A stretch of DNA of 26,832 nt, from positions 1 to 26,832 of the forward strand of contig NZ_JALRNF010000057.1 of assembly GCF_030272895.1 (NCBI RefSeq), written 5' to 3'. The notes beneath the pieces are model-generated. The model had not been told where the DNA came from. It saw only the letters and a program-made list of their open reading frames with translations, and did not search any database. The DNA comes from Pseudomonas sp. BGr12 (lineage in GTDB: Bacteria > Pseudomonadota > Gammaproteobacteria > Pseudomonadales > Pseudomonadaceae). Both the position numbers and the translations under genes were made by a program. Of this stretch, positions 271-15,954 are shown in pieces; position 1 is the stretch's first letter; every line of letters starts with the position of its first letter.

Positions 271-1320
271 TCAGGGCTTGAGGGAGGCCATGTCGATCAC
301 GAAGCGGTACTTCACGTCGTTCTTCTCCATGCGTACGAACGCCTGGTTGATGTCCTGTATGTCGATCATCTCGCAGTCCGGCAGCACCTGGTGCTCGGCA
401 CAGAAATCCAGCAGTTCCTGGGTCTGTTGCAGGCCGCCGATCAAGGAGCCGGCGATGGAGCGGTTGTTGATCGCCAGCAAGGCGCCGTGGATCGGCTCCA
501 GCGGCTCAAGTGCGCCCACCAGCACCAGCGTGCCCTGGCGGCCCAGGAGCATCAGGTAGGGGTTGACGTTATGGCCGCGCGGGATGGTGTCGAGCATCAG
601 GTCGAAGCTGTTGGCCGCGTCTTTCATCGCCTGCGGATCAGTGGACAACAACACATGGTGCGCGCCCAGGGCGCGGGCATCCTCGGCCTTGCCCGGCGAG
701 GTGGTGATCACCGTGACCCGGGCGCCCAGCGCCACGCCCAGCTTGACCGCCATATGCCCCAGGCCGCCCAGGCCGACCACGGCCAGGCGCGTGCCGGCCT
801 TCACGCCATGCTCGCGCATCGGCGTCCAGACGGTAATGCCCGCACACAGCAGCGGGCCGGTGTAGCGCGGATCCAGCGCCGCCGGCACACGCAGGACGAA
901 CGGCTCACGGACCACGATGTGCTGGGCATAGCCACCGAGGGTGACCTCGCCGCTGATGCGGTCCAGGCCGTTGTAGGTCGGCGTCATGCCCTGGGTGCAG
1001 TGGGGTTCCTGGTGCTGCTCGCAGGCCGGGCAGCCCTGGCAGCTGTCGACCAGGCAACCGACGGCGACCCGGTCACCGACCCGGTAGCGGCTGACGGCCG
1101 GCCCCACGGCCGTGACCCTGCCGATGATTTCGTGGCCGGGAACGCAGGGAAAGCGCGTGGTGCCCCAGTCGTTGTGGACGTAGTGCATGTCCGAATGGCA
1201 GACGCCACAGTAGTCGATCGCAATGGCGACATCGTCGTCGCGCAGCGCACGGCGTTCTATGCGCAGGGGCTCAAGGGGCGCGTGGGCTTCATGGACGCCG
1301 TAGGCGAGGCAGGTGCTCAT
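271..1320 (-). CDS. Zinc-dependent alcohol/aldehyde reductase (cinnamyl-alcohol-dehydrogenase / YahK type)
   Basis: Medium-chain zinc dehydrogenase, 349 residues, usual length for the family; cytosolic NAD(P)H-linked interconversion of aldehyde and primary alcohol. Seen: catalytic zinc site Cys41 (CGVCHSD), His63-Glu64 (PGHE) and Cys159 (LLCAG); four structural zinc cysteines at about 94, 97, 100 and 108; Rossmann motif GLGGLGH near 183-189. The start at 1320 is chosen over the longer frame to 1383 because AAGGA lies 6 bp upstream and the protein begins with the conserved MSTCLAYGV. It is the last gene after luxE-like and luxC-like genes (31-bp gap), so its likely partner is the aldehyde handled by the LuxC homologue. 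Substrate chain length cannot be read from sequence. Its 3' end is duplicated downstream at 90-190. Confidence 0.93.
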   Translation of the reverse strand: MSTCLAYGVHEAHAPLEPLRIERRALRDDDVAIAIDYCGVCHSDMHYVHNDWGTTRFPCVPGHEIIGRVTAVGPAVSRYRVGDRVAVGCLVDSCQGCPACEQHQEPHCTQGMTPTYNGLDRISGEVTLGGYAQHIVVREPFVLRVPAALDPRYTGPLLCAGITVWTPMREHGVKAGTRLAVVGLGGLGHMAVKLGVALGARVTVITTSPGKAEDARALGAHHVLLSTDPQAMKDAANSFDLMLDTIPRGHNVNPYLMLLGRQGTLVLVGALEPLEPIHGALLAINNRSIAGSLIGGLQQTQELLDFCAEHQVLPDCEMIDIQDINQAFVRMEKNDVKYRFVIDMASLKP

Positions 1321-1351
1321 GGGAATTCCTTTACTGTCAGGGGTACGGGGG

Positions 1352-2809
1352 TCAGATAGAGGGGCGCAGCCAGGGCGCGGCACTGGTTTGCGGCGAAGCG
1401 ATCTGGTTGGAGATCCACTTGCCCATGCGCCGCATCGGCTCGATGGCGTCCTGGGGCGCGGCGAACTTCATCGCCGCGGCATAGCCCAGCGAAACGATGC
1501 GCTGGGCGCCATACAGCGGCAGCACATCCTTGAGCTGGTCCTTGATGCTTTCCGGATACACCCCCACGGTCTGGGTGTAGGCATCGACCGCATCGAGCAT
1601 TTCGCTCAGCTCGTCCACCGGCACCAGGTTGGCGGTGCGGTCATCCAGGCTGGCGGCAAAGGACACCGGCTCCGGCAGCTGCGAGCAGATGATCGCGCCC
1701 TCGCCGTCGCGGCCACCGATGACCCTGTACCACTCGTCATCCAGGCGCAGGGCATCGACGTGGGCCTTGAGGTGCTGGTCGTACTGCTTGGGCCGGGTAC
1801 TGAGGGTATTGGGCAGGCCAAGCATGGCTTCATGCACGTAGTGGCCGAAGGTGTTGAGGCGCGCCAGGCCCTGCTCGTCGGTGCCGCTCTGCACATAGAC
1901 CACCCGCGCGCACACGCAGCCCTTCTGGTTGATCGCACCGATATCGGCGGCCAGGCGCACGGCGGCGTCGCGCATGCTCGCCTCGCTGGCGAAGGCGGCT
2001 TTGCCGATAATGCTGGCGCTGCGCTTGGGGTCCAGGGAGATCAGTTCCAGGCCCGGCTGGATATAGCGGGTGACGTGCTTGATCGAGGCAAAGCCGCCCC
2101 AGGCGACGATCTTCTCCAGGTTCTGCGGCTGGTACAGGCGCTGCTCCAATGCTTGATCGCCGCCCTTCCAGTAGGCGACGCTCAGGTGCCGGGTCAGCGG
2201 ATGGTCCGGGGCCATGTCGACCATGGTGCGGGCGATGGCCAGCGCGGTGAACGGGTCGTTGGACGGCGCCTTGATGATCGCGTCGCTGCGCAGCACCATG
2301 TTGCGGATGATGGTCCACAGCGACAGCGACACCGCATTGCCGGCGACGATGTGCAGCGTACGCGCGCCGAAGCAACGCACTTCAAGCTCGGTGCCATCGA
2401 GCAGGGTCTGCGGCACCCAGCCTTCCAGGTACTTGACGCCTACTGTGGTTTCCACCATTTCGCGGATGAATTCCCGCGAGAGCAGGTGCTGCAGGCCCAT
2501 GTAGGAGCCTTTGACGATGCTCGGGGTAGTCGGCGCAGTCAGGTATGACAGCTCGCAGGCTTCCTGCAGGTAGGGGTTCTTGTCCAGGGCCAGGCGCTGG
2601 CCGAGTTCCACCGCATAGTCGAGGATGTCCTCGAAACTCAGGCTGTACAGGTCGGCAAGCCTGGCCGGGTTGCCCAGCGGCAGCCGGTCGATGTACTGGT
2701 TGGCGTCTGGAGTGAGGAACCGCAGGTCGCCACCGCGTCCGCCCGCTTCAATCAGGTTGTCGGTAATCACCTGGCCACGGATGACCATCGGTGCGATCGG
2801 ATGAGTCAT
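1352..2809 (-). CDS. luxC: LuxC-family long-chain acyl (acyl-CoA) reductase
   Basis: 485 residues, matching the LuxC family, the NADPH-dependent reductase subunit of the fatty-acid reductase complex, which passes an acyl group through an active-site cysteine to give a fatty aldehyde. Seen: aldehyde-dehydrogenase-like fold signatures (HIVAGNAVSLS near 153-163, KAPSNDPFTA near 180-189) and a cysteine pair Cys298/Cys300 in NQKGCVCARV at the place expected for the nucleophile. It starts 3 bp after the stop of the LuxE-like gene and is followed after 31 bp by a zinc ADH, so the three are almost certainly one operon. No luciferase or luxD gene is in the window, so light production is not the role. 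It could also run in reverse, oxidising aldehyde to an acyl group. The symbol is a family name, not proof of orthology. Confidence 0.85.
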   Translation of the reverse strand: MTHPIAPMVIRGQVITDNLIEAGGRGGDLRFLTPDANQYIDRLPLGNPARLADLYSLSFEDILDYAVELGQRLALDKNPYLQEACELSYLTAPTTPSIVKGSYMGLQHLLSREFIREMVETTVGVKYLEGWVPQTLLDGTELEVRCFGARTLHIVAGNAVSLSLWTIIRNMVLRSDAIIKAPSNDPFTALAIARTMVDMAPDHPLTRHLSVAYWKGGDQALEQRLYQPQNLEKIVAWGGFASIKHVTRYIQPGLELISLDPKRSASIIGKAAFASEASMRDAAVRLAADIGAINQKGCVCARVVYVQSGTDEQGLARLNTFGHYVHEAMLGLPNTLSTRPKQYDQHLKAHVDALRLDDEWYRVIGGRDGEGAIICSQLPEPVSFAASLDDRTANLVPVDELSEMLDAVDAYTQTVGVYPESIKDQLKDVLPLYGAQRIVSLGYAAAMKFAAPQDAIEPMRRMGKWISNQIASPQTSAAPWLRPSI

Positions 2810-2812
2810 GCT

Positions 2813-4243
2813 TCAGCCCTCCAGAGTGTTGAGGAAATCCATCGCCTCGCGATGGGATTGTTCCGACGCGGCGCAGGTGATCTTGTCGTCGCCACCGTTC
2901 TTCTCGCTGTAGCGCTGGATGGCGCCGACCACGTAACGGCTATGGCGCCCGCAGGTGCAGGGCTGGTCCCAGTCGATGGTGACCTCGTCGCCGGTGATGA
3001 AACCGCCCCAGTGGATGTCCGCCCCCAGGTCGAAGAACGCCGCCCGCCCGGTCTGCCGGCCCTGGCGCGGCAGCGGCTTGCTGGTCTGCGGATCGAGCAG
3101 GAAGGGAATGGCGGTGTGCGCGAAGTGGTAGTTGCCCGCCTCGCACTTGATGTGCGAACCGCTGACCACCTCCGACATGGCGTAGGACTCGTGGATCACC
3201 CTGGCGCCGGTGAAGCGCATCACCTCCTCTCGCCAGTTCTGCGGTGGCACCACGCCTTTGGCGCCGCCCGTGGTGGCGATATAGGAGTCGGCATGGAAGA
3301 CCCCTTCCAGGCCACGCTCAAGGCCGGCGGTGGCCATGTTGTGCAACAGGTTCCAGGTGCCGCCGATGTACACCCGCTTGCCCTTCAGGCGCGTGGCGAT
3401 GTCATCGAAAAAGGCCGCCAGGTGTTGGGGCATCTCGGCCTGCTGCTGGTCGAAGGCTTTCTTCTTGGCCAGCAGTTCCGGGGCCACCACCAGCCGGTCC
3501 AGGGTGCCCTTGGCATGGGCCGCGCGCAGCCTGGCGCCCAGGTGCAGCACGTCGCTGGACAGGGTCGAGGGATAGGCCGGGTGAAAGTGCGCAAGGTTCG
3601 GCAGCAGCACCTTGTTCAGCGCACCTACGCCGCGCAGGTGGCTCAGGTAGCCTTTACGGTAGTAGGGATACGCAGTGTGCAGCTCGGGGTCGGGGGTATC
3701 TATGCCTGCCATGTGCCAGGCGTAGAGCTTGCGCACCTGCGCGGCCTTTTCGAACTCACGGGTGCTGCAGGGCAGGAACGACAGCGTGCCGGAGGTGCCC
3801 GAGGTATGGCTCAGGCACAGCGCCGGGACTTCGCGGTCCATGGTCTCGAACCAGTCGTCCAGGCCTGCGCAGGCGCTGACATCGACGGCAGCGATCTGCT
3901 CGGCAAGCTCGGGCACCACCAGTTTGCCGAGCCAGCGGTTGATGGCGGCGAAGTTGTTCTTTTCCAGCAGCGACGGCGGATAGGACTTGAACAGCGTGTG
4001 CTCGAACAGCAGCGGCACCACGTCATCCAGTTGCTCGATGCGCTCGATACCTTCGGCGTCCGCCAGTTTCTTCAGCACCGCGATGCGCTCGCGCAGCTGT
4101 GCAAACCGACGCTTGAGGCCGGCCAGTTGCAGGGTGTCGATTCGCGAGGCGGGCATCTGCTGCCAGGTGTGCAGGTCATGCTCCACCAGCGCCACCGGGT
4201 CACTCAACAGCAGCTCGACCTGTTCTTCTATTGTTTTTGTCAC
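2813..4243 (-). CDS. luxE: LuxE-family acyl-protein synthetase / acyl-activating enzyme
   Basis: 476 residues, longer than classical LuxE (about 370), of the LuxE/acyl-protein synthetase family within the adenylate-forming enzymes. Family role: fatty acid plus ATP gives acyl-AMP, then the acyl group is transferred to a cysteine and on to LuxC. Seen: ATP-binding loop SHTSGTSGT at 145-153, an aromatic/Gly-rich region YIATTGGAKGVVPPQNW, the motif HESYAMSEV, and a C-terminal CTCGR...GGDDKI segment (about 429-455) like the adenylate-forming C-terminal hinge. The additional ~100 N-terminal residues are of unknown role. It is first of the luxE-luxC-adh operon, 140 bp downstream of the tetR gene. A role in acyl activation is confident; the natural substrate is not known. 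Confidence 0.83.
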   Translation of the reverse strand: MTKTIEEQVELLLSDPVALVEHDLHTWQQMPASRIDTLQLAGLKRRFAQLRERIAVLKKLADAEGIERIEQLDDVVPLLFEHTLFKSYPPSLLEKNNFAAINRWLGKLVVPELAEQIAAVDVSACAGLDDWFETMDREVPALCLSHTSGTSGTLSFLPCSTREFEKAAQVRKLYAWHMAGIDTPDPELHTAYPYYRKGYLSHLRGVGALNKVLLPNLAHFHPAYPSTLSSDVLHLGARLRAAHAKGTLDRLVVAPELLAKKKAFDQQQAEMPQHLAAFFDDIATRLKGKRVYIGGTWNLLHNMATAGLERGLEGVFHADSYIATTGGAKGVVPPQNWREEVMRFTGARVIHESYAMSEVVSGSHIKCEAGNYHFAHTAIPFLLDPQTSKPLPRQGRQTGRAAFFDLGADIHWGGFITGDEVTIDWDQPCTCGRHSRYVVGAIQRYSEKNGGDDKITCAASEQSHREAMDFLNTLEG

Positions 4244-4383
4244 GGGACAGTCTCCTGGGCTTCAACGGCCTTGATGGCTGAGCCAGTGTAGGGCCGCGCG
4301 GGGCAATATCATTTCCGCATTCCGCAACCCTGGAAGAGCATATAACTAACTGTTTTTATTTATTTTTATTTGAGAAGGTCGAG
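4244..4383 (-). promoter_or_regulatory. Promoter/operator region upstream of luxE-luxC-adh
   Basis: 140-bp gap between the tetR stop and the luxE-like start. It contains an AT-rich island (about 4341-4372) that stands out against the GC-rich surroundings, and a perfect tandem 7-bp repeat TTCCGCA at 4313-4319 and 4320-4326. On the minus strand TTCCAG and TGATAT, about 18 bp apart, form a weak possible -35/-10 pair. A TetR operator is plausible here but no clear palindrome was recognised, and no hairpin-plus-T-run terminator was seen after tetR. Confidence 0.4.
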
Positions 4384-5076
4384 TTATCGAGAGGGCTGTT
4401 CCGGGTCTGCCGTGGTCAGCAGCGCATGGAGCATGCGCGCCAGCAGGCGCACGGTGTCGTCTTCGAGCAGGTAGTGCGGTTTTTCGATCAACAGCGCCCG
4501 GGGCAAGGCGGTGACCGCCTGGTAGGCGAGAAAACCGGCCTTTTCCCGGTCACGCACCACGACCTGGTCGCTGAAGCGCTCCACCAGCGCCGGGATCACC
4601 CTGGAAATCCAGAAGCGCTCCGGCTTGACGATCTCCAGGCGCACCAGCTCGCCGTGGTAGGCGGACTTGATGCTCAGTTGCGAGTCGATCTGCAACCAGC
4701 GATGCAAGGCACCGAGGCCCGTGCGCAGGACCATCTCGATGCCGTCATAGAGCGTCGCCGAAGCCGGCAGCGCGTGGATGTTGGCGATTGTTTGCAGGCG
4801 CACGTCGGCGCGGTAGTCCTCGAAGATTGCGCCGATCAGCGATTCGATGGTGGGGAAATACTCATAGATCGAGCTGATCGCCACCCCGGAATAGTCGCTG
4901 AGGCGGTAGATGCTCAGGGCCTCGCGCCCTTCCCGTTCGAGCACTTCGCGCCCGGCTGTTTTCAGCGCCTCGACCAGCGCCACCGAGCGCGCTTGCTTCG
5001 GCTGCTTGCGCGGGCGGGCCGGCAAGCTCACCACGACGCTGTCGTGGCTGCCGCGCCCGCCCGATGATGCCCCCAT
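4384..5076 (-). CDS. TetR-family transcriptional regulator
   Basis: 230 residues. The N-terminal helix-turn-helix of the TetR family is seen at about residues 25-80 (RKQPKQARS..., YSGVAISSIYEYFPTIESLIGAI), with a variable ligand-binding C-terminal part. The gene starts 5 bp after the stop of the alkyl sulfatase gene, so it is co-transcribed with it, and it precedes the luxE-luxC-adh operon. The simplest idea is a repressor answering to an alkyl alcohol, aldehyde or acyl-CoA and controlling both flanking units; this is inferred from position. The ATG at 5076 has only a weak GAG upstream; internal GTG codons near residues 14-16 are alternative starts that would trim a low-complexity Gly/Ser/Arg leader. 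Confidence 0.88.
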   Translation of the reverse strand: MGASSGGRGSHDSVVVSLPARPRKQPKQARSVALVEALKTAGREVLEREGREALSIYRLSDYSGVAISSIYEYFPTIESLIGAIFEDYRADVRLQTIANIHALPASATLYDGIEMVLRTGLGALHRWLQIDSQLSIKSAYHGELVRLEIVKPERFWISRVIPALVERFSDQVVVRDREKAGFLAYQAVTALPRALLIEKPHYLLEDDTVRLLARMLHALLTTADPEQPSR

Positions 5077-5081
5077 GGCGC

Positions 5082-7055
5082 TCAGGGGGTAACGATGTTG
5101 AAGGTGGGCTGGAAACTCGCCAGCATGCCGAGCATCGACTTGAAGCGCTGGGCGTCGCCCTCGATCCTGATATCGCCCTGCTTGATCGCCGTCGGGAAAT
5201 CCAGTTGGCGCAGGCTGATGAGGTCCAGCGCCGCCTTGCTCATCGTCACCGTGGCGTCGGCTTGCGGATGACTGGCGTGTTCGCGCCAGGTCAGTACGCC
5301 ATTGCGCAAGGTCAGGGCAAAGTGCTGGTCGAGGTCGTCGAAGTTCCAGTTCAGGGTCATGTCGTGGCCCTGGGCCTTGTCCGAATCCATGCGCACGGCC
5401 AGCACATCCATGAACATCGCCGGCGTCGCCGCACGCACCAGGTCGGCAATGGCGCGGCCACCCTGGGGGATCCCGACCTTGCGCAACTCATGCGCGCCGG
5501 TCAGGTAGATGTTGCGCCAGATCGCCGATTCGCTGCGGTAGCCCAGTTGCTCCAGGGCATCGGCCTGGGCCTCGCGGGCGGCCTGGTTGTCGGGCTCGGC
5601 GAACACCAGATGATTGCCCAGTTGCGTCGCCCAGCGATAATCGCCCTGCTCCATCGCCGTGCGCATCAGCGTCAATACCTTGTCCGCGCCGCCCAGCGCC
5701 TGGACATAGCGCTTGCCCGCCTGCTGCGGCGGCAGCGGGTCGAGGTTGGCCGGGTTGCCGTCGTAAAAACCCAGGTAACGCTGGTACACGGCGCGGCTGT
5801 TGAAGCTCAGGGTGCCGTAATAGCCCCGGGCGTACCATTTATGCGCGAGCTCGCCGGGCAGGGTCTTGATCGCATCGGCGATTTCCAGTGGCGTCAGGCC
5901 CTGGTTGAGCAGGTGCAAGGTGCGGTTATTGAGGAAGGCGTACATGTCACGCTGGTCGGCCAGCAGGGTGCGGATGCCGTCGGCGCCCCAGGTCGGCCAG
6001 TTGTGCTGGGCGAACATGACCTTGGCCTTGTCGCCGTAACGCACCAGGCTGTCGTCGATAAACTGTGACCAGGCTTTGGCGTCCCGCACCTCCGCGCCCC
6101 GCGGCGTGAGCACGTTGTGCATCGACATCACCGCGTTCTCGGCCATGCACAGCGCCTGCAGCTGCGGCAGGTACAGGTTCATCTCCGCCGGTGCCTCGGT
6201 GCCGGGTGTGAGCTGGAATTCCACCTGGACGCCGGCGATGTCGTGGCTTTCCAGGGGCTGGACGATCAGGTCGGTGGGCGCGATCAGGCTGATGCTGCCG
6301 CCCACCGGCACGCCCTTGCCGATGCCGGTGTCCACTTGCCCGCGTTCGCCTTTGGCCACCGTGCTGCCGCTCTGGTACATGCCGCGGCGGAACATCGCGG
6401 TGCCGGCCAGCACGTTTTCCTGGATGGCATGTTCCATGAAGCCGTGCGGAGCATAGATCCTCACCTTGCCGGCCTTGACGTCCGCCTCGTCGACCACCCC
6501 GCGCACGCCGCCAAAATGATCGGCATGGCTATGGGAATAGATGACCGCCACCACCGGCTTGCGCGGGCGGTGCTGGTAGTACAGCTCAAGCCCCGCCCTG
6601 GCGGTCTCGGTGACATAGAGCGGGTCGATGACGATCAGCCCGTCGTCGCCTTCGATGAGGGTCATGTTCGCAAGATCGATGCCGCGAATCTGGTAGACCT
6701 TGTCGGTGACCTCGAACAGCCCGGCGTTGGCATTGAGCTGCGCCTGGCGCCACAGGCTGGGGTTGACCGTGTCGGGGGCCTGGGCCTGCTTGAGGAAGTC
6801 ATACCGCTGCGACGACCACACCGGCTTGCCCTCGGCATTCTTCACCTCACCCTCGAAGGCCGCCACCAACCCGCGGCGGGCGGCGTCGTAGTCGGCGCGG
6901 TCCTGGAACGGCAGCTGCTTGAGCACGTCCTGGTTGCTGGCGGCGGTGGTCGGGCTGGCGGCCTTGGCCAGGTCGCCTGACGGGGTGTCTGCGGCCCAGC
7001 ACGGGGCGCTGGACAAGGCAATGGCAGTGAACAGAGCACACAGGCGATAGCGCAT
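5082..7055 (-). CDS. sdsA: Exported alkyl sulfatase (SdsA / BDS1 family, metallo-beta-lactamase fold)
   Basis: 657 residues, the length of the SdsA1/BDS1/Pisa1 alkyl sulfatases, which hydrolyse alkyl sulfate esters such as dodecyl sulfate to alcohol and sulfate. Seen: N-terminal signal peptide (about 1-21, cleavage near CWA/ADT); zinc-binding HSHADH at 175-180; the family segment MHNVLTPRGAEVRD; FAQHNWPTWG; the dimerisation region with YYGTLSFNSRAVYQRYLG and DGNPANLDPLPP; and a C-terminal SCP2-like domain (last ~130 residues). The start is supported by AAAAGGA about 6 bp upstream. It should act in the periplasm. It heads the minus-strand run and diverges from an iron-type ADH, both fitting use of the released alcohol. 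Whether it prefers primary (retention) or secondary (inverting) sulfates is undetermined. Confidence 0.92.
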   Translation of the reverse strand: MRYRLCALFTAIALSSAPCWAADTPSGDLAKAASPTTAASNQDVLKQLPFQDRADYDAARRGLVAAFEGEVKNAEGKPVWSSQRYDFLKQAQAPDTVNPSLWRQAQLNANAGLFEVTDKVYQIRGIDLANMTLIEGDDGLIVIDPLYVTETARAGLELYYQHRPRKPVVAVIYSHSHADHFGGVRGVVDEADVKAGKVRIYAPHGFMEHAIQENVLAGTAMFRRGMYQSGSTVAKGERGQVDTGIGKGVPVGGSISLIAPTDLIVQPLESHDIAGVQVEFQLTPGTEAPAEMNLYLPQLQALCMAENAVMSMHNVLTPRGAEVRDAKAWSQFIDDSLVRYGDKAKVMFAQHNWPTWGADGIRTLLADQRDMYAFLNNRTLHLLNQGLTPLEIADAIKTLPGELAHKWYARGYYGTLSFNSRAVYQRYLGFYDGNPANLDPLPPQQAGKRYVQALGGADKVLTLMRTAMEQGDYRWATQLGNHLVFAEPDNQAAREAQADALEQLGYRSESAIWRNIYLTGAHELRKVGIPQGGRAIADLVRAATPAMFMDVLAVRMDSDKAQGHDMTLNWNFDDLDQHFALTLRNGVLTWREHASHPQADATVTMSKAALDLISLRQLDFPTAIKQGDIRIEGDAQRFKSMLGMLASFQPTFNIVTP

Positions 7056-7213
7056 ACGAATCCTTTTAATCGGCCCAAGGCATGGATAACAGCAGCAGAG
7101 TAAGCCCCTGTGCGGGCAACCGCCCCCCCTCGATGGGAGGGGTATGCCACCGGCGGCTAGCGCCTAACGTCTGTGGGCATCGTCCACCCACGGCCATTCA
7201 CGGGAAACACCAC
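7056..7213. promoter_or_regulatory. Divergent promoter region between sdsA and the iron-type ADH gene
   Basis: 158 bp separating two divergently read genes. An inverted repeat CCCCTC-(5 bp)-GAGGGG lies at 7126-7142 in a C-run/G-run context and could be an operator or simply G/C-rich. A longer reading frame from 7082 into the ADH gene exists but lacks family similarity in its first 44 codons, so this stretch is taken as non-coding. No convincing -35/-10 pair was found by eye. Confidence 0.4.
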
Positions 7214-8368
7214 ATGACACGCCGCCTGCTGTTCAACACCACCCGCTCGATCATCATTGAACGCGGCGCCGCCGCCCGCCTGGCCGAACAGGTGCAATCC
7301 ATGGGGCATCGTTCCGTGCTGCTGGTCACCGATGCCGGGGTGCTCGCCGCCGGCTTGCTGGCACAGGTGGAACCGGGCTTTGCCCGCGCAGGTATCGCCC
7401 TGCGGGTGTTCGCCGAGGTGCAGGCCGATCCGCCGGAGTCGGTGATCCTGGCCGCCGTGCAGGCGGCACGCGGCTGCGGCGCCGAGTGTGTCATCGGTTT
7501 CGGAGGCGGCAGTTCGCTGGACGCCGCCAAGCTCACCGCCCTGCTGGCCCGCAGCGAGGAATCGCTGGCCGATATCTACGGCATCGACCGCAGCAATGGC
7601 CGGCGCCTGCCGCTGATCCTGGTGCCGACCACGGCCGGTACCGGCTCGGAAGTTACCGCCGTGTCGGTGGTGACCACCGGCGAAGGCCAGAAGAATGTCG
7701 TGATTTCGCCGGCGTTGTTGCCTGATGTCGCCGTGCTGGACGCCGATCTCACCCTGGGACTGCCCAGGGCCGTCACCGCGGCCACCGGTATCGACGCCAT
7801 GGTCCATGCCATCGAGGCCTATACCACCCGGCACTTGAAGAACCCGATTTCCGATTGCCTGGCCCGTGAAGCCCTGCGCCTGCTGGGCGACAACCTGGTG
7901 GCGGTCTGCGACGACGGCAGCGACGCCCAGGCCCGTGAACAAATGCTGCTCGGCGCGTGCCTGGCCGGCATGGCCTTTGCCAATGCGCCGGTCGGTGCGG
8001 TGCATGCCCTCGCCTATCCGCTGGGGGCGCGCTTTCATGTGCCGCACGGGCTGTCCAATGCCCTGGTACTGGCGCCGGTGATGCGCTTCAACCTGGACGC
8101 GGCGGCGCCGCTCTATGCCGAACTGGCCGCTATTGTGCTGCCGCAGGTCGAGGGCTCGGACGTACAGCGGGCATCGGCGCTGATCGACCACCTGCAGGCG
8201 TTGCCGGCCCGGCTCGGGCTGCCCACCCGCCTGCAGGAAGTGGGGATTGCCCGCTCCGACCTCGACGCACTGGCCCATGACGCGACCCTGCAGACCCGCC
8301 TGCTCGGCAACAACCCGTGCGAACTGAGCCTTGAAGACATCCGCTCGATCTACCGGCAGGTGCTCTGA
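7214..8368 (+). CDS. Iron-containing (type III) alcohol dehydrogenase
   Basis: 384 residues, normal size for iron-containing ADHs, which interconvert primary alcohols and aldehydes with NAD(P). Seen: nucleotide-binding GFGGGSS (95-101) followed by LDAAK; the signature VPTTAGTGSEVT (138-149); metal ligands Asp194 and His198 (GIDAMVHAIEAY), His264 and His278 (GAVHALAYPLGARFHVPHG). The start at 7214 gives the conserved N-terminus MTRRLLFNTTRSI, while the upstream extension from 7082 does not look like protein of this family. A weak GGGAAA lies about 7 bp upstream. Divergence from the sulfatase gene suggests that it oxidises the alcohol freed by that enzyme; this is inference from position. Confidence 0.92.
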   Translation: MTRRLLFNTTRSIIIERGAAARLAEQVQSMGHRSVLLVTDAGVLAAGLLAQVEPGFARAGIALRVFAEVQADPPESVILAAVQAARGCGAECVIGFGGGSSLDAAKLTALLARSEESLADIYGIDRSNGRRLPLILVPTTAGTGSEVTAVSVVTTGEGQKNVVISPALLPDVAVLDADLTLGLPRAVTAATGIDAMVHAIEAYTTRHLKNPISDCLAREALRLLGDNLVAVCDDGSDAQAREQMLLGACLAGMAFANAPVGAVHALAYPLGARFHVPHGLSNALVLAPVMRFNLDAAAPLYAELAAIVLPQVEGSDVQRASALIDHLQALPARLGLPTRLQEVGIARSDLDALAHDATLQTRLLGNNPCELSLEDIRSIYRQVL

Positions 8369-9157: not shown

Positions 9158-9187
9158 AGTATAGAAGCACTCTGGACAGCCATCTAA
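9158..9187 (-). promoter_or_regulatory. Candidate promoter for the 42-residue membrane protein gene
   Basis: On the minus strand the -10 hexamer TATACT (9158-9163), preceded by C, matches the CTATACT form favoured by stationary-phase sigma S. TTAGAT lies about 18 bp upstream as a possible -35. Predicted start of RNA near 9151 gives an ~85-nt leader. Read by eye only. Confidence 0.4.
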
Positions 9188-9211
9188 CGGGGTTTCCCAA
9201 CATTCCACCCG

Positions 9212-9236
9212 TCGAAATACGTTAATACCCTTTCGA
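9212..9236. promoter_or_regulatory. Inverted repeat TCGAAA-N13-TTTCGA upstream of nspC
   Basis: A 6-bp perfect inverted repeat with an AT-rich centre (ATACGTTAATACC) lies 63 bp before the nspC start. It could be an operator or part of the promoter. The short arms make chance occurrence quite possible. Confidence 0.3.
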
Positions 9237-9299
9237 TATGCGGTCAGTGAAGGCACAATGCGTGTCCTTTTTTTGGCTGGCCAAGCCCGGGGCCTGGAA

Positions 9300-10397
9300 A
9301 TGATCAATACGCCGTACTACCTCATCGATAAACAAAAGCTGCTGCAGAACATGCAGAAGATCGCCTATGTGCGCGAGAAGTCCGGGGCCAAGGCCCTGCT
9401 GGCACTCAAGTGCTTCGCCACCTGGTCGGTGTTCGACCTGATGCAACAGTACATGGACGGCACCACGTCGTCGTCGCTCTACGAGCTCAAGCTCGGCCGC
9501 CAGAAGTTCGCCGGCGAAACCCACGCCTACAGCGTGGCCTGGGCCGATGACGAAATCGGCGAGATGATCGAGAACTGCGACAAGATCATCTTCAACTCCA
9601 TCGGCCAGCTGCAGCGCTTTGCCGAGCAGACCGAAGGCACCGTGCGCGGCCTGCGGGTCAACCCGCAAGTGAGCAGCTCGGACTACCTGCTGGCCGACCC
9701 GGCGCGTCCGTTCAGCCGCCTGGGCGAATGGGATCCGGTGAAAGTCGAAGGCGTGATCGAGCAGATCTCCGGCTTCATGTTCCACAACAACTGCGAAAAC
9801 GCTGACTTCGACCTGTTCGACAAGATGCTCGGACACATCGAGGAGCGCTTCGGCCACCTGCTGCACAAGGTCGAATGGGTCAGCCTGGGTGGCGGCATCC
9901 ACTTCACCGGCGACGACTATGCCCTGGACGCCTTCTGCGCGCGCCTGAAGGGTTTCTCCGAGAAATACGGCGTACAGGTCTACCTGGAGCCGGGCGAAGC
10001 GGCCATCACCCAGAGCGCCTCGCTGGAAGTCACCGTGCTCGACACCCTGTACAACGGCAAGCACCTGGCCGTGGTCGACAGCTCCATCGAAGCGCACATG
10101 CTGGACCTGCTGATCTACCGCCTCAACGCCAAGATGGCCCCCAACGACGGCGAACACACCTACATGGTGTGCGGCAAGTCGTGCCTGGCCGGCGACATCT
10201 TCGGCGAGTATCAATTCGATCGTCCGCTGGCCATCGGCGATCGGCTGTCGTTCGTTGACGCAGCGGGTTACACCATGGTCAAGAAAAACTGGTTCAACGG
10301 CCTGAAAATGCCGTCCATCGTAGTGAAACAACTCGACGGTAGCGTTGAAGTGGTTCGCGAGTTTGGTTTCGAAGACTACTTGTCCAGCCTGTCTTGA
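9300..10397 (+). CDS. nspC: Carboxynorspermidine / carboxyspermidine decarboxylase
   Basis: 365 residues, the size of NspC. It is a PLP-dependent fold-type III (alanine-racemase-like) decarboxylase that converts carboxynorspermidine or carboxyspermidine to norspermidine or spermidine. Seen: PLP lysine Lys37 in LLALKCFATWS; the GGGIHF phosphate-binding region near 192-197; the active-site segment CGKSCLAGD; the C-terminal GYTMVKKNWFNGL. The start at 9300 (MINTPYYLIDK) matches the family N-terminus; an in-frame ATG at 9258 would add 14 residues that look non-family, and neither start has a strong ribosome site. It is followed after 27 bp by the dehydrogenase that makes its substrate. Confidence 0.92.
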   Translation: MINTPYYLIDKQKLLQNMQKIAYVREKSGAKALLALKCFATWSVFDLMQQYMDGTTSSSLYELKLGRQKFAGETHAYSVAWADDEIGEMIENCDKIIFNSIGQLQRFAEQTEGTVRGLRVNPQVSSSDYLLADPARPFSRLGEWDPVKVEGVIEQISGFMFHNNCENADFDLFDKMLGHIEERFGHLLHKVEWVSLGGGIHFTGDDYALDAFCARLKGFSEKYGVQVYLEPGEAAITQSASLEVTVLDTLYNGKHLAVVDSSIEAHMLDLLIYRLNAKMAPNDGEHTYMVCGKSCLAGDIFGEYQFDRPLAIGDRLSFVDAAGYTMVKKNWFNGLKMPSIVVKQLDGSVEVVREFGFEDYLSSLS

Positions 10398-10424
10398 GCT
10401 GGCAGTAAAGGAGAGAAAGAGAAA

Positions 10425-11660
10425 TTGAAGAAGAACGTTCTTATCATTGGTGCAGGAGGTGTCGCCAAGGTGGTGGCCCACAAGTGCGCGCAGCACAACG
10501 ACGAACTCGGTCGTATTGCCATCGCGTCGCGCAACATCTCCAAATGCCAGGCCATCATCGACAGCGTCAAGGCCAAGGGCAGCCTCAAACAGCCCGCTGA
10601 AATCGCCGCTTACGCGCTCAATGCGCTGGATGTCGAAGCGACCAAGGCGCTGATCCGCGAGACCGAATCGCAGATCGTCATCAACGTCGGCTCCGCCTTC
10701 CTCAACATGTCGGTGCTGCGTGCCTGCATCGATACCGGCGTGGCCTACCTGGACACCGCCATCCACGAAGAGCCGGGCAAGATCTGCGAGACGCCGCCGT
10801 GGTACGGCAACTACGAGTGGAAACACCTCGAGGAATGCCAGCAGAAGAACATCACCGCCATTCTTGGCGTGGGCTTCGACCCGGGCGTTGTAAACGCCTA
10901 TGCAGCCCTGGCAAAACAACAGTATTTCGACCGCATTGATTCGATCGACATTCTCGACGTCAATGCCGGATCCCATGGCAAGTACTTCGCCACCAACTTC
11001 GACCCGGAAATCAACTTCCGCGAATTTACCGGGCAGGTGTGGAGCTGGCAGAACAGCCAGTGGACCAGCAACACCATGTTCGAAGTCAAGCGTACCGATG
11101 ACCTGCCGGTGGTAGGCTCGCAGAACCTGTACCTGACCGGCCACGACGAAGTGCACTCGCTGTCCAAGAACCTGGACGTGCCCAACGTGCGCTTCTGGAT
11201 GAGCTTCGGCGAGCACTACATCAACGTGTTCACCGTGCTGAAGAACCTTGGCCTGCTCTCCGAGCAACCGGTCAAGACCGCCGAAGGCCTGGAAGTGGTA
11301 CCGCTCAAGGTGGTCAAGGCCGTGCTGCCGGATCCGGCCTCGCTGGCTCCTGGCTACACCGGCAAGACCTGCATCGGCGACCTGGTCAAGGGCACCAAGG
11401 ACGGCCAGCCGCGTGAGGTGTTCATCTACAACGTCGCCGACCACGAGGAAGCCTACGCCGAGACCGACAGCCAGGGTATTTCCTATACCGCTGGCGTGCC
11501 GCCGGTAGCCGCCGCCCTGCTGGTCGCCCGTGGCGAGTGGGATGTGCAGCGCATGGTCAACGTCGAGGAGCTGCCAGCCGAGCCGTTCCTCAAGGCGCTG
11601 GACGTGATGGGCCTGCCGACCCGCGTCAAGGACGAGAACGGCGATCGTCCCTGGAACTGA
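10425..11660 (+). CDS. Carboxynorspermidine synthase (saccharopine-dehydrogenase-like)
   Basis: 411 residues. Family role: NADPH-dependent reductive condensation of aspartate semialdehyde with diaminopropane or putrescine to carboxynorspermidine or carboxyspermidine, the substrate of the upstream decarboxylase. Seen: Rossmann motif VLIIGAGGVAKVVAHKC at the N-terminus, GVGFDPGVVNAYAALA in the middle, and the C-terminal AGVPPVAAALL. The start is TTG at 10425, with a strong AAAGGAGAG ribosome site at 10408-10416; no ATG fits the conserved N-terminus. The decarboxylase-first gene order is worth noting. Some databases call this family lysine 1-dehydrogenase, but the coupling to nspC favours the polyamine role. 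Confidence 0.9.
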   Translation: MKKNVLIIGAGGVAKVVAHKCAQHNDELGRIAIASRNISKCQAIIDSVKAKGSLKQPAEIAAYALNALDVEATKALIRETESQIVINVGSAFLNMSVLRACIDTGVAYLDTAIHEEPGKICETPPWYGNYEWKHLEECQQKNITAILGVGFDPGVVNAYAALAKQQYFDRIDSIDILDVNAGSHGKYFATNFDPEINFREFTGQVWSWQNSQWTSNTMFEVKRTDDLPVVGSQNLYLTGHDEVHSLSKNLDVPNVRFWMSFGEHYINVFTVLKNLGLLSEQPVKTAEGLEVVPLKVVKAVLPDPASLAPGYTGKTCIGDLVKGTKDGQPREVFIYNVADHEEAYAETDSQGISYTAGVPPVAAALLVARGEWDVQRMVNVEELPAEPFLKALDVMGLPTRVKDENGDRPWN

Positions 11661-11677
11661 TTGACTGACGGTCCCCG

Positions 11678-11763
11678 GTGGGAGCGGCGGTTCGACGCCT
11701 CGACTTGCCCCGCGATTGCGTGTGTTCAGGCACAACGCGATCGCGGGGCAAGCCCGCTCCTAC
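11678..11763. repeat. REP palindrome, variant with an extended left arm (second copy)
   Basis: The left arm begins GTGGGAGCGG and carries the same CGGTTCGACGCCTCGA block as the copy at 8842; the right arm is ordinary. It lies 17 bp after the dehydrogenase stop and before the nap promoter region, where it separates the two operons. Confidence 0.88.
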
Positions 11764-11794
11764 ATTTGAATACGCGCTAAGTCCCACCTCAACC

Positions 11795-11836
11795 TTGATC
11801 TGGCGCAAGTTGCCGCCGGTCGTAATACGCCACTCT
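11795..11836 (+). promoter_or_regulatory. Candidate ANR/FNR-type box and promoter for the nap operon
   Basis: TTGAT-CTGG-CGCAA at 11795-11808 fits the ANR/FNR consensus TTGAT-N4-ATCAA in 8 of 10 defined positions. A TAATAC -10-like hexamer follows at 11823-11828, about 70 bp before napE. Anaerobic control by ANR or DNR is known for pseudomonad nap/denitrification genes in general; here it is inferred from one imperfect site. Confidence 0.45.
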
Positions 11837-11896
11837 CTTCAAGCCACTCCAAATGCGTGATCTACGCTGAACCAAGGCTCGGCTGGAGATAGTTCA

Positions 11897-12064
11897 ATGT
11901 CATTGGCTGAAGAACAAAAAACCGTGCGCCGCAAGGAAGGCCGGCTGTTCATCTTTCTTGTCGCCTGCCTCTTTCCCCTGCTCTCGGTCGCCATTGTCGG
12001 CGGCTACGGCTTCATTGTCTGGTTCCTGCAGATGATCTACGGTCCGCCCGGGCCACCCAACTGA
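11897..12064 (+). CDS. napE: NapE, small membrane protein of periplasmic nitrate reductase operon
   Basis: 55 residues: a charged N-terminus (MSLAEEQKTVRRKEGR), one transmembrane helix (about residues 19-46) and the ending YGPPGPPN, the typical NapE layout. Its exact function is unknown in the family. GGAG (11885-11888) lies 8 bp before the ATG. It is the first gene of the operon, 22 bp before napD. Confidence 0.88.
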   Translation: MSLAEEQKTVRRKEGRLFIFLVACLFPLLSVAIVGGYGFIVWFLQMIYGPPGPPN

Positions 12065-12086
12065 CTTTGTTTATCGGAGCCCGCCC

Positions 12087-12347
12087 ATGGATGACGCTCT
12101 GCATATTGCCAGTCTTGTCGTACTTGCCCGTCCGGAACTGTTAAACGCAGTCAAGGCCAACTTGCGCCTGCTCGACGATGTCGAACTGCATCAGGAAAGT
12201 GCAGCCGGAAAGTTGGTGGTGGTACTTGAAGCCCGGCACGAGCAACAGATCCTGCAACGCATCGAACAGATCAACAACCTGCCAGGCGTACTCAATGCCG
12301 CGTTGATCTACCACGAACTCCTCGACTCCGCAGGAGAGCAACAATGA
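12087..12347 (+). CDS. napD: NapD, chaperone for NapA
   Basis: 86 residues, ferredoxin-like fold family that binds the Tat signal peptide of NapA and holds it until the molybdenum cofactor is inserted; cytosolic. Seen: the N-terminal [20 protein letters not shown] and the C-terminal [16 protein letters not shown] typical of NapD. GGAG lies before the ATG, and its stop overlaps the napA start (ATGA). Confidence 0.92.
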
Positions 12348-14848
12348 GCATGACCCGCCGTGAATTCGCCAAGGCCCAGGCCGCGGCCATTGCCGCAGCT
12401 GCCGCCGGGCTGCCGATCTACACCACCGCCAGCAACCTGATCACCGAAGCGGACATGGTCAGCCTGGACTGGAACAAGGCGCCCTGCCGCTTCTGCGGCA
12501 CCGGTTGCAGCGTGATGGTGGCCACCCGCGACAACCGCGTGGTCGCCACCCACGGCGACGTCAAGGCCGAGGTCAATCGCGGGTTGAACTGCGTCAAGGG
12601 CTACTTCCTGTCGAAGATCATGTATGGCGTCGACCGCCTGACCCAACCGCTGCTGCGCATGAAGAACGGTGAGTACGACAAACAGGGCGAGTTCCAGCCG
12701 ATCAGCTGGGACAAGGCCTTCGACATCATGGCCGCCAAGTACAAGGAGGCCCTGAAGAACAAAGGCCCCGGGTCGATCGGCATGTTCGGCTCCGGGCAAT
12801 GGACGGTGTGGGAAGGCTACGCCGCCAACAAGCTGATGAAGGCCGGTTTTCGCAGCAACAACATCGACCCCAACGCCCGCCACTGCATGGCCTCGGCGGT
12901 GATGGGCTTCATGCGCACCTTCGGCATGGACGAACCCATGGGCTGCTACGACGATATCGAAGCCACCGACGCCTTCGTGCTCTGGGGCTCGAACATGGCC
13001 GAGATGCACCCGATCCTCTGGAGCCGGGTCACCGACCGGCGCCTGAGCCAGCCGCAGGTCAAGGTCGCGGTGCTGTCGACCTTCGAGCACCGCAGCTTCG
13101 AGCTGGCCGACATCCCCATGGTGTTCAAGCCGCAGACCGACCTGCTGATCCTCAACTACATCGCCAACCACATCATCCAGAGCGGCGCGGTGAACAAGGA
13201 CTTCATCAGCAAGCACACCCGCTTCGCCAAGGGCGCCGACGACATCGGCTACGGCCTGCGCCCGGGCAACCCGCTGGAGACCGCGGCCAAGAACGCCGAC
13301 AAGGCCAACACCTGGAGCGATATCGATTTCGACCAGTTCGCCGCCTTCGTCCGGCCCTACACCCTGGAGCGTGCGGCCAAGGAGACCGGCGTACCCGCCG
13401 AGCGCCTCAAGGCCCTGGCCGAGCTGTATGCCGACCCCAAGCGCAAGGTCGTGTCGTTCTGGACCATGGGCTTCAACCAGCACACCCGCGGGGTCTGGGC
13501 CAACAACCTGATCTACAACATCCACCTGCTCACCGGCAAGATCAGCGAACCGGGCAACAGCCCCTTCTCGCTTACCGGCCAGCCATCGGCCTGCGGCACC
13601 GCCCGCGAAGTCGGCACCTTCTCGCACCGCTTGCCGGCCGACCTGGTGGTGACCAATCCCAAGCACCGCGCCACGGCCGAGAAGATCTGGAAACTGCCCG
13701 CCGGGACCATCCAGGAAAAAGTCGGTTTCCATGCCGTGCAACAGAGCCGCATGCTCAAGGACGGCGTACTCAACGTGTACTGGACCCAGGCCAGCAACAA
13801 CATGCAGGCAGGTCCGAACATCATGCAAGAAGTGCTGCCGGGCTGGCGCAAGCCGGAGAACTTCGTGATCGTTTCCGATGTGTACCCCACGGTATCGGCC
13901 CAGGCCGCCGACCTGATCCTGCCCAGCGCCATGTGGGTGGAAAAGGAAGGCGCCTTCGGCAACGCCGAGCGCCGGACCCAGTTCTGGCACCAACTGGTCA
14001 GTGCGCCGGGCGAGGCCCGCTCGGACCTGTGGCAACTGGTGGAATTCTCCAAGCGCTTCACCACCGATGAAGTCTGGCCCGCCGAGCTGCTGGCCAAGGC
14101 CCCCGAGTACAAGGGCAAGACCCTCTTCGAGGTGCTGTTCAAGAACGGTCAGGTCGACCAGTTCCCGGTCGAGCAGCTGGAAGCGGGCTTCAAGAACGAT
14201 GAAGCCAAGGCCTTTGGCTTCTACCTGCAAAAAGGCCTGTTCGAGGAGTACGCCCAGTTCGGTCGCGGCCACGGCCATGACCTGGCGACCTTCGACCTGT
14301 ATCACCGCGAACGCGGGCTGCGCTGGCCGGTGGTCGACGGCAAGGAGACACGCTGGCGCTACCGCGAGGGCCTGGACCCCTATGTCGAAGCCGGCAGTGG
14401 CGTGCAGTTCTATGGTTACCCGGACAAGAAGGCGATCATCTTCGCCCTGCCCTACGAGCCGCCGGCCGAAGCGCCGGATGCCGAGTACCCGTTCTGGCTC
14501 AGCACCGGCCGGGTGCTGGAACACTGGCACACCGGCAGCATGACCCAGCGGGTCGAGGAGCTCTATCGCGCCGTGCCGGATGCCCTGGTGTACATGCACC
14601 CGGAGGATGCCAAGGCCATGAATGCCCGGCGTGGCAGCGAGGTGAAACTGGTCAGCCGCCGTGGCGAGATGCGCGCGCGCATCGAAACCCGTGGGCGCAA
14701 CAAGCCGCCCCGCGGCCTGGTGTTCGTGCCGTTTTTCGACGCCAACAAGCTGATCAACAAGGTCACCCTCGACGCCACCGACCCGATCTCCAAGCAGACC
14801 GACTACAAGAAATGCGCCATCCGTATCGAGCTGATCAGCGTGGCCTGA
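12344..14848 (+). CDS. napA: NapA, catalytic subunit of periplasmic nitrate reductase
   Basis: 834 residues, full length. It reduces nitrate to nitrite in the periplasm at a molybdenum bis-MGD centre. Seen: Tat signal with TRREFAK at 4-10 followed by an Ala-rich hydrophobic stretch; [4Fe-4S] ligands Cys48, Cys51, Cys55 and Cys83; the molybdenum-coordinating Cys181 in NARHCMAS; conserved HTRGVWANN and the C-terminal molybdopterin-binding domain ([16 protein letters not shown]). Electrons should come from NapC through NapB, encoded immediately downstream. The start codon overlaps the napD stop, implying translational coupling. Confidence 0.97.
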
Positions 14849-14859
14849 GGAGCGCCGTC

Positions 14860-15348
14860 ATGACTATTCGAATCCTGCCGTTGCTCCTGTTCGCCGTCAT
14901 TGGTGCGGTGATCGCCGCCGATGTCGACTATCCGCTCGATGCCCCGGGGCCCGACGGACGTCGCCCCGGCGGCACACTGACCCAGAGCATGCCGGCGCCA
15001 CCGCTTGCCAACGACGAAAACAAGGACCTCAAGCGCGAGCGCAACTACCCCGACCAGCCGCCGACCATTCCCCACGCGATCCGCGGCTACCAGATCGATA
15101 CCAACAGCAACAAGTGCCTGTCCTGCCATAGCCGCGCCAACAGTGCGCGCAGCCAGGCGACCATGATCAGCATCACCCACTACATGGACCGCGACGGCCA
15201 GGCCCTGGCGGCGGTGTCACCGCGTCGCTATTTCTGTACGCAGTGCCATGTGCCGCAAAAAGAAGTGCAGCCGCTGGTGGGCAACAGCTTCGAAACCATC
15301 GACAAGATCCTGCAGGACGACGCCGAAGCCGCAGGCAAGCAACCTTGA
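14860..15348 (+). CDS. napB: NapB, di-heme cytochrome c subunit of nitrate reductase
   Basis: 162 residues, exported by an N-terminal signal (about 1-19). Two heme c sites are seen, CLSCH (86-90) and CTQCH (126-130). It passes electrons from NapC to NapA. The start at 14860 is chosen because GAGG lies just upstream and the signal peptide begins MTIRILPLLLF; the longer frame from 14812 overlaps napA. It lies 11 bp after napA. Confidence 0.96.
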   Translation: MTIRILPLLLFAVIGAVIAADVDYPLDAPGPDGRRPGGTLTQSMPAPPLANDENKDLKRERNYPDQPPTIPHAIRGYQIDTNSNKCLSCHSRANSARSQATMISITHYMDRDGQALAAVSPRRYFCTQCHVPQKEVQPLVGNSFETIDKILQDDAEAAGKQP

Positions 15349-15357
15349 GGAGGCGCC

Positions 15358-15954
15358 ATGAAAGCACTGTTCGCCCTGCTTAAGGAGTACTGGGGCATCC
15401 TCTGTCGGCCCAGCGTCTACTTCAGCCTGGGGTTCCTGACCCTGGGCGGGTTCATCGCCGGGATCATCTTCTGGGGCGGCTTCAACACCGCCCTGGAGAT
15501 GACCAACACCGAGAAGTTCTGCGTGTCGTGCCATGAGATGCGTGACAACGTCTTCGTCGAGCTCAAGGAGACCATCCACTACACCAACCGCTCCGGCGTG
15601 CGCGCCAGTTGCCCGGACTGTCACGTGCCCCATGAGTGGACCCACAAGATCGCGCGCAAGATGCAGGCGTCCAAGGAGGTGTGGGGCAAGATCTTCGGCA
15701 CCATCGACACCCGCGACAAGTTCCTCACCCTGCGTCGCGAGCTGGCCGAGCATGAATGGGCCAGGCTCAAGGCCAACGACTCGCGCGAGTGCCGCAACTG
15801 TCACAACTTCGAGTTCATGGACTTCACCCGCCAGAGCAAACGGGCCGCGGCAATGCACTCCACCTCGCTGGCCAAGGGCGAGGCGACCTGCATCGATTGC
15901 CACAAGGGGATCGCCCACAAGTTGCCGGACATGCACGGCGTCAAGGGCTGGTGA
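15358..15954 (+). CDS. napC: NapC, tetraheme quinol-oxidising cytochrome c
   Basis: 198 residues, NapC/NirT family. One N-terminal membrane anchor (about 20-40), then four heme c sites: CVSCH (55-59), CPDCH (85-89), CRNCH (145-149) and CIDCH (178-182). It oxidises membrane quinol and feeds NapB/NapA. GAGGCGCC precedes the ATG, 9 bp after napB. It ends the operon; a REP follows immediately. Confidence 0.97.

Follow-up and report, generated by a model that had tools for sequence, protein, structure and literature searches.

In this study, we analysed a 26,832-base stretch of DNA from Pseudomonas sp. BGr12 (the window), which is the entire contig C233 of a 280-contig assembly of 5.63 Mb, and in it an operon that combines a LuxE-like protein and a LuxC-type reductase with an alcohol dehydrogenase (ADH), a TetR-family regulator and an exported alkylsulfatase. 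Most of what is known about LuxE and LuxC comes from luminous bacteria. We propose, with a probability of roughly 50%, that the two proteins form here a non-luminous acyl module within a small dedicated regulon, and that this module serves to break down a hydrophobic compound that is probably hydroxylated or bears a secondary sulfate and is not sodium dodecyl sulfate (SDS). The genes are conserved together in relatives, the sulfatases that accompany them form one group and the operon shares a promoter footprint with a few further genes. A first-pass annotation of the window had described six genes at this place and read them as a possible detergent-degradation or wax/alcohol module; all six were found at about the positions given there, its minus-strand list naming five of them and the divergent iron-type ADH being the sixth. 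Its observation is confirmed and its interpretation partly supported. The features in question are as follows.

271..1320, minus strand: Zn-dependent ADH/aldehyde reductase of the Ahr/YahK/CAD type (PF08240, PF00107); the open reading frame (ORF) opens at 1383.
1352..2809, minus strand: LuxC-type acyl-thioester (acyl-coenzyme A, acyl-CoA) reductase (PF05893).
2813..4243, minus strand: LuxE-like protein with a predicted PaaK-type large adenylating domain and Cys457 in its tail.
4285..4323, minus strand: conserved promoter footprint, GGAATGCGGAA-N22-TACACT, upstream of luxE.
4384..5076, minus strand: TetR-family regulator (PF00440).
5082..7055, minus strand: exported alkylsulfatase of the metallo-beta-lactamase type (PF14863, PF14864 and PF00753, Lactamase_B).
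7082..8368 (alternative start 7214), plus strand: iron-type ADH, divergent from the sulfatase gene (PF00465, PF25137).

The sulfatase and tetR genes are separated by 5 nt, tetR and luxE by 140 nt, and luxE and luxC by 3 nt. None of the 19 window proteins run against Pfam belongs to the luxA, luxB or luxD families, a search that covered the ORFs of the right part in part and left the rest of the genome unsearched.

To follow these genes in other genomes, we used stretches reaching about 10 kb to each side. After the removal of five doubly fetched stretches (L056, L057, L058, L060 and L062) there were 33 close loci, namely the window, 24 loci from a contig scan of named Pseudomonas genomes (two of them in one genome), L051-L055, L059 and L061, and the Caballeronia plasmid locus L011; the named genomes closest to the window locus in that scan are all Pseudomonas. 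A LuxC match was obtained in 8 of 25 genomes of the genus and, at E 1e-50, in 16 of 398 sampled genomes of the family, 15 of these being close (at least 81% identity), and also in 45 plasmid records, seven of which were inspected. The genome searches scored the best three or four candidates per genome for luxC, for the sulfatase and for the thiamine pyrophosphate (TPP) and GlcD-like enzymes introduced below, and up to 20 for the permease; because only these best first-look candidates were scored, absences are soft. The luxE and luxC genes are adjacent in all 33 close loci, and the gene for the Ahr-type Zn-ADH lies directly downstream of luxC in 32, the exception being L051 (genome G014), where some 10 kb separate it from luxC and a footprint copy of its own precedes it. 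Homologues of tetR, the Fe-ADH gene and the sulfatase gene occur within the stretch in at least 31, 18 and 13 of the 33 loci, respectively, counts that are lower bounds because some stretches reach contig ends. At E 1e-240 the sulfatase is matched in 49 of the 398 genomes, and such a match lies within 10 kb of luxC in 11 of the 15 genomes with a close luxC (P ~1e-21 with two sulfatases per genome placed randomly, which is only a rough guide because the genomes are related). The first-pass annotation had named the loss of this linkage in related genomes as the finding that would speak against it; the linkage is kept, and the luxE-luxC-adh genes and the sulfatase gene form a conserved and probably co-regulated unit.

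Nine more distant luxC loci (L012-L016, L063-L066) each have a LuxE-like neighbour and differ in their surrounding genes, with a polyketide synthase beside luxC in Pseudonocardia and glycolate-oxidase-like genes in Novosphingobium. On the Pseudonocardia plasmid (L014, 1035-13685) the LuxC and LuxE-like genes stand next to a type I polyketide synthase and a P450, and a role in a biosynthetic cluster is possible for that pair. As a separate observation, tetR, luxC and adh are each matched in two pieces in L032 (about 9186-14067), which reflects frameshifts or sequencing errors.

The window sulfatase has the Lactamase_B, dimerisation and C-terminal domains of a type III alkylsulfatase and, as judged by eye, a signal peptide. 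Its nearest sequence in the PDB is the sec-alkylsulfatase Pisa1 (913 bits, compared with 614 for SdsA1). The same genome encodes a second alkylsulfatase (contig C212, 256-2205, minus strand) that is 65% identical to that of the window and scores 921 bits against Pisa1; since this copy scores alike, the bit score alone cannot fix the substrate of the window enzyme. A midpoint-rooted tree was built from Pisa1, 20 unlinked sulfatases (from 19 loci, plus the C212 copy) and all linked ones but L054, a near copy of L036 and L055, which makes 12 of 13; unlinked matches without a fetched locus were omitted. The 12 linked sulfatases are all placed to the same side of a branch with a support of 98/96. 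The C212 copy lies outside, as does Pisa1, whose own branch is long, and the window sulfatase does not group with Pisa1. The linked group includes L036 and L055, in which the gene has moved and is convergent beyond adh. This grouping supports the coupling between sulfatase and luxEC that had been proposed at first pass. Type I sulfatases are also found nearby in five of the 33 loci (L011, L032, L039, L048 and the G141 locus), in L011 adjoining a gene for a formylglycine-generating enzyme; with 7-16 copies per Pseudomonas genome searched about one such locus is expected (binomial P 0.005, post hoc), and we consider this second linkage to luxEC weak.

A new finding of this analysis is the promoter footprint upstream of luxE. 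Its core, AATNCGGAA, is present in 32 of the 33 loci, with one mismatch in L055, and in most loci it sits 21-22 nt before an NANACT box. The full form seen in the window matches once in the window and not at all in 100 shuffles. The pattern GAATNCGGAA-N21/22-NANACT was found in 7 of the 8 luxC-bearing genomes of the genus, each time at luxE, versus 1 of the 17 without luxC (G013; P 1e-4), although the matches at luxE are partly circular as evidence, since luxE sites were the source of the pattern; the same pattern written backwards gave no match in the 25 genomes. Of another 22 locus-bearing genomes or records, 19 contain the pattern, with a single match for the backwards control. Independent of this circularity are nine extra sites away from luxE, from which second copies in the gap upstream of luxE were excluded. 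The next gene encodes the ADH in G014 (followed by a permease and a TPP enzyme) and a permease in G401, G403, G141 and G153. In G237, Caballeronia and G398 it encodes the TPP enzyme, and at a second site of G398 a GlcD-like oxidase. As all nine copies stand before ADH, permease, TPP-decarboxylase-like or GlcD-like genes, the footprint suggests a small regulon around luxE-luxC-adh, and this common element ties the three genes to further ones, which supports part of the first-pass reading. In G141 and G153 the site is located in the gap beside the sulfatase start and reads away from the sulfatase into the permease gene; no footprint reading into the sulfatase gene was seen in the upstream survey of the loci. 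In nine loci (L038, L040-L046 and L049) the gap between the divergent luxE and Fe-ADH genes holds a second copy of AATCCGGAA, some 86 nt further upstream than the luxE footprint.

The permease resembles galactonate and HpaX transporters, with scores below their cut-offs, and is present in 10 of the 15 luxC genomes versus 3 of 65 genomes chosen without luxC (P 4e-7). The TPP enzyme has benzoylformate decarboxylase as its nearest relative in the PDB and passes the NCBIfam model PRK07586, "acetolactate synthase large subunit"; it is matched at E 1e-150 in 7 of the 398 genomes, three of them at 76-79% identity and all three with luxC on the same contig (P 4e-5 for an identity of at least 76% occurring only with luxC, the cut-off having been chosen after the matches were seen). 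GlcD is placed in the regulon because of the footprint in G398 and its adjacency in L039. Which protein binds the footprint is a separate matter. The TetR protein, presented at first pass as the regulator of the operon, was considered for this role and not upheld: a perfect palindrome with 7-nt arms is missing in 19 of 23 upstream stretches and, by homologue search, tetR is absent from the L028 and L033 stretches, which retain the footprint. TetR is thus an uncertain candidate for the regulator of the operon.

The LuxE-like protein, which the sources mostly label "hypothetical protein", has no Pfam match and no sequence relative in the PDB at E 0.1; PF04443, the model for LuxE, does not match it at a threshold as loose as E 10. 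Against the gathering score of 24.9 bits of this model, P0228, a more distant relative, reaches 27.2 and P0177 stays just below at 24.3. A profile comparison with true LuxE (hhalign) gave 85.6% and E 5.5e-6, over 128 columns only. Modelling predicts that the protein corresponds to the large domain of an adenylating enzyme of the PaaK type (ANL/PaaK fold), probably without the mobile C-terminal domain that serves thioester formation; alignments of the model stop near residue 330-370 of the PaaK family, with about 26 more residues in the protein. Cys457, about 20 residues from the end, is kept in 92 of 93 sequences in one alignment and in 19 of 19 in another. Reference LuxE has a cysteine about 11 residues from its end, outside the region aligned by hhalign; the cysteine near the C terminus of LuxE is the acyl-accepting one, and Cys457 is a candidate for the same role. 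By this indirect evidence for its name, the LuxE of the first-pass annotation is a distant relative that looks able to act like LuxE but stays below the family model. Four other residues, C367, H373, C429 and C431, are invariant in 93 of 93 sequences and might form a zinc site; not all of them are kept in more distant relatives.

LuxC is a family member by PF05893 (128.9 bits, gathering score 21), stays far below the cut-off of 750 bits of NF052251, the equivalog model for the long-chain LuxC of luminous bacteria (130.9 bits), and shares 25% identity with a LuxC from a lux operon; it is the one LuxC-family match in the window's genome. PDB entry 7xc6 matches it at E 6e-32, and its QKGC motif aligns with QRAC of the lux-operon LuxC and with QQAC of 7xc6, the aligned cysteine presumably being the acylated one. 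The Zn-ADH has YahK as its nearest PDB protein and Ahr as its best-scoring NCBIfam model, at 311 bits and a cut-off of 470. It likely starts at the ATG at 1320, giving 349 aa, because a start at 1383 would overlap luxC. For the Fe-ADH no PDB chain was found at E 1e-70. At the contig end, within positions 1-376, segments of 85 bp and 116 bp comprising a hairpin resembling repetitive extragenic palindromes and the 3' end of the ADH gene are repeated with a spacing of 181-183 bp and 95-99% identity; the outer ADH end is truncated. The repeat is either a true tandem duplication or an assembly edge effect.

From these features we infer a route that would run in the oxidative direction. The exported sulfatase would free an alcohol, which the Fe-ADH and the Ahr-type Zn-ADH would interconvert with the aldehyde, and LuxC would interconvert the aldehyde and an acyl thioester on its cysteine. 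The C-terminal cysteine of the LuxE-like protein could then link this thioester to acyl-AMP and the free acid, or hand the acyl group to CoA, and the acyl unit would enter beta-oxidation of a branched-chain type, genes for which flank the operon in some relatives. In L027-L031, L034, L035, L037, L052, L053 and L061 these flanks contain, in full or in part, DUF1302, BNR and MMPL genes, two acyl-CoA dehydrogenases, DUF1254/DUF1214 genes, a CoA ligase, a short-chain dehydrogenase/reductase and an enoyl-CoA hydratase, as well as a thiolase that is nearest to SCP2-thiolase. A similar set of the resistance-nodulation-division (RND) type is described as a monoterpene exporter of Castellaniella (PMC6394551). 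By analogy, the flanking RND set together with the acyl and thiolase genes suggests that the substrate is hydrophobic and perhaps alpha-methyl-branched, and the module probably joins the aldehyde to the activated-acyl level in the catabolism of such compounds. None of this set flanks the operon in the window, and an extended beta-oxidation cluster sought in the window's own genome was rejected, as only partial matches on other contigs were obtained.

Several observations weigh against the catabolic reading. ATP-driven LuxE chemistry normally favours reduction. In 4 of the 15 luxC genomes no sulfatase is nearby, being located elsewhere in G014, G019 and G295 and lacking at E 1e-240 in G017. Only 7 of the 10 genomes with both permease and luxC have the two genes on one contig and no more than about 40 kb apart, and a footprint search that tolerated one mismatch gave no match at the permease genes of G145, G127 and G299. 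Relatives of the TPP enzyme at 53-55% identity are carried by four genomes without a close luxC, and GlcD at E 1e-150 matched 2 of the 398 genomes, both without luxC. The window's own genome has one exact footprint, no TPP or GlcD match at E 1e-150 and a single permease match, on another contig and at 61%.

The chemistry could also run the other way, with the LuxE-like protein activating a free acid with ATP, LuxC reducing it to the aldehyde and the Ahr-type ADH forming an alcohol for esterification or excretion; the sulfatase would then do no more than recover alcohol from sulfate esters. That LuxE and LuxC act reductively in luminous bacteria, that an aldehyde reductase, Ahr, provides the best-scoring named model for the ADH, albeit below its cut-off, and that genes of the wax ester synthase/diacylglycerol acyltransferase type occur near regulon genes in L011, L159 and L160 all speak for such an alcohol or wax module. 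However, beta-oxidation genes flank the operon in several relatives, and the Caballeronia acyltransferase of this type, used as a query, had no match at E 1e-15 in the remaining loci of the blast survey. We hold this direction to be possible but rather unlikely. Further-reaching, and in our estimate unlikely, is the idea that LuxE-LuxC is the ATP-linked aldehyde/acyl hub of an undescribed pathway resembling alpha-oxidation. An organic-acid permease, a secondary sulfatase, the GlcD-like 2-hydroxyacid oxidase and the benzoylformate-decarboxylase-like TPP enzyme would there convert acids with a sulfate or hydroxyl group, which might be branched or isoprenoid, into aldehydes shorter by one carbon. 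These LuxC/LuxE would activate for beta-oxidation through the SCP2-thiolase, all under one promoter element common to Pseudomonas and Caballeronia.

A third group of explanations concerns the sulfatase. It might scavenge sulfur and be a neighbour of luxEC-adh by history only, as the lack of a sulfatase in the stretch in 20 of the 33 loci and of any footprint directed into its gene would allow; we consider this improbable, because one sulfatase group follows luxEC through a rearrangement, the footprints of G141 and G153 lie beside the sulfatase start, though directed into the permease gene, and type I sulfatases recur near luxEC more often than expected. Degradation of SDS or other primary alkyl sulfates, in the manner of slfCHSL of Psychrobacter, would involve the same classes of step as the SLF module, that is sulfatase, ADH, aldehyde oxidoreductase and acyl activation (PMC10779009). 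The detergent reading of the first-pass annotation fares badly nonetheless. P. umsongensis DSM 16611 (L028, NIWU genome), the sole carrier checked, has sulfatase-luxE-luxC-adh, with the caveat that tetR is not adjacent, yet it reportedly could not degrade SDS (PMC6107682), which makes SDS an unlikely substrate. Pisa1, to which the window sulfatase is closer than to SdsA1, is likewise described as inactive on SDS (PMC3920027). As a counterpoint, PMC6107682 shows two Pisa1-like enzymes that do hydrolyse SDS, SdsAP1 and SdsAP2, which cluster with Pisa1. On the SDS-negative carrier and the reported inactivity of Pisa1 we rejected SDS as the main explanation and regard an SDS module as very improbable.

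To the left of the operon the contig ends, and to the right lie a gene for a BamE-domain lipoprotein, polyamine-type genes and nap genes. At 9258-11660 on the plus strand two genes encode, in one frame, a pyridoxal-phosphate-dependent decarboxylase (PF00278) and a saccharopine-dehydrogenase-like protein; by these two matches they are polyamine-type genes, probably a carboxynorspermidine pair. An 837-aa ORF opposite them on the minus strand is most likely spurious. The genes at 12344-15954 (plus strand) are napA-napB-napC, for a periplasmic nitrate reductase.

If the catabolic reading is correct, LuxE/LuxC pairs outside luminescence gain a metabolic role, a regulon is defined by a promoter element that is directly testable, an unknown natural sulfate ester is pointed to and a two-protein carboxylate/aldehyde system becomes available for biocatalysis. 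In the searches made of open-licence papers luxC, luxE and sulfatase were not found together, nor were acyl-CoA reductase, LuxC and steroid, and luxC with an alkylsulfatase term was not found among the matches listed; the combination of luxC, luxE and non-luminous returned only engineered luciferase work. What this study adds is a LuxE-like/LuxC pair that is a conserved, sulfatase-linked and promoter-defined unit in non-luminous-looking pseudomonads.

This unit resembles several known systems in part. With the luxC-luxE fatty acid reductase it shares a LuxC above the Pfam cut-off with an aligned cysteine, the adjacency of the two genes and a partner that is predicted to adopt an adenylating fold and has a cysteine close to its C terminus; however, the window LuxE-like protein exceeds its counterpart by about 100 residues and is not matched by PF04443, LuxC lies far below the luminous NCBIfam model, and the genes are linked to an ADH and a sulfatase, with no luxA, luxB or luxD family among the window proteins tested. 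Pisa1 from Pseudomonas sp. DSM 6611 has the same domains as the window sulfatase, a similar length and the best PDB match, whereas the latter belongs to the separate luxEC-linked group (98/96). The SDS pathway of Pseudomonas, SdsA/SdsA1 with laoABC, likewise combines an alkylsulfatase with alcohol and aldehyde oxidation, but its sulfatase is of another subgroup and one carrier of our cluster is reported to be SDS-negative. AmeABCD, the hydrophobe exporter of Castellaniella, is comparable as an RND transporter with outer-membrane and periplasmic partners to the DUF1302/BNR/MMPL genes of the relatives; it is tied to monoterpene metabolism, and the RND-type set of the relatives is not beside the window operon (PMC6394551). 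Similar in layout is slfRCHSL on the Psychrobacter plasmid pP62BP1, a compact set of sulfatase, ADH, aldehyde oxidoreductase, acyl activation and regulator, although its regulator is of the AraC/XylS type, its activation step uses a fatty-acid-CoA synthetase and luxC has 0 occurrences in the text on it (PMC10779009). SLF shows that modules of sulfatase, ADH, aldehyde oxidoreductase and acyl ligase exist, and in a module of this type the aldehyde oxidoreductase and acyl ligase roles would here fall to LuxC and the LuxE-like protein.

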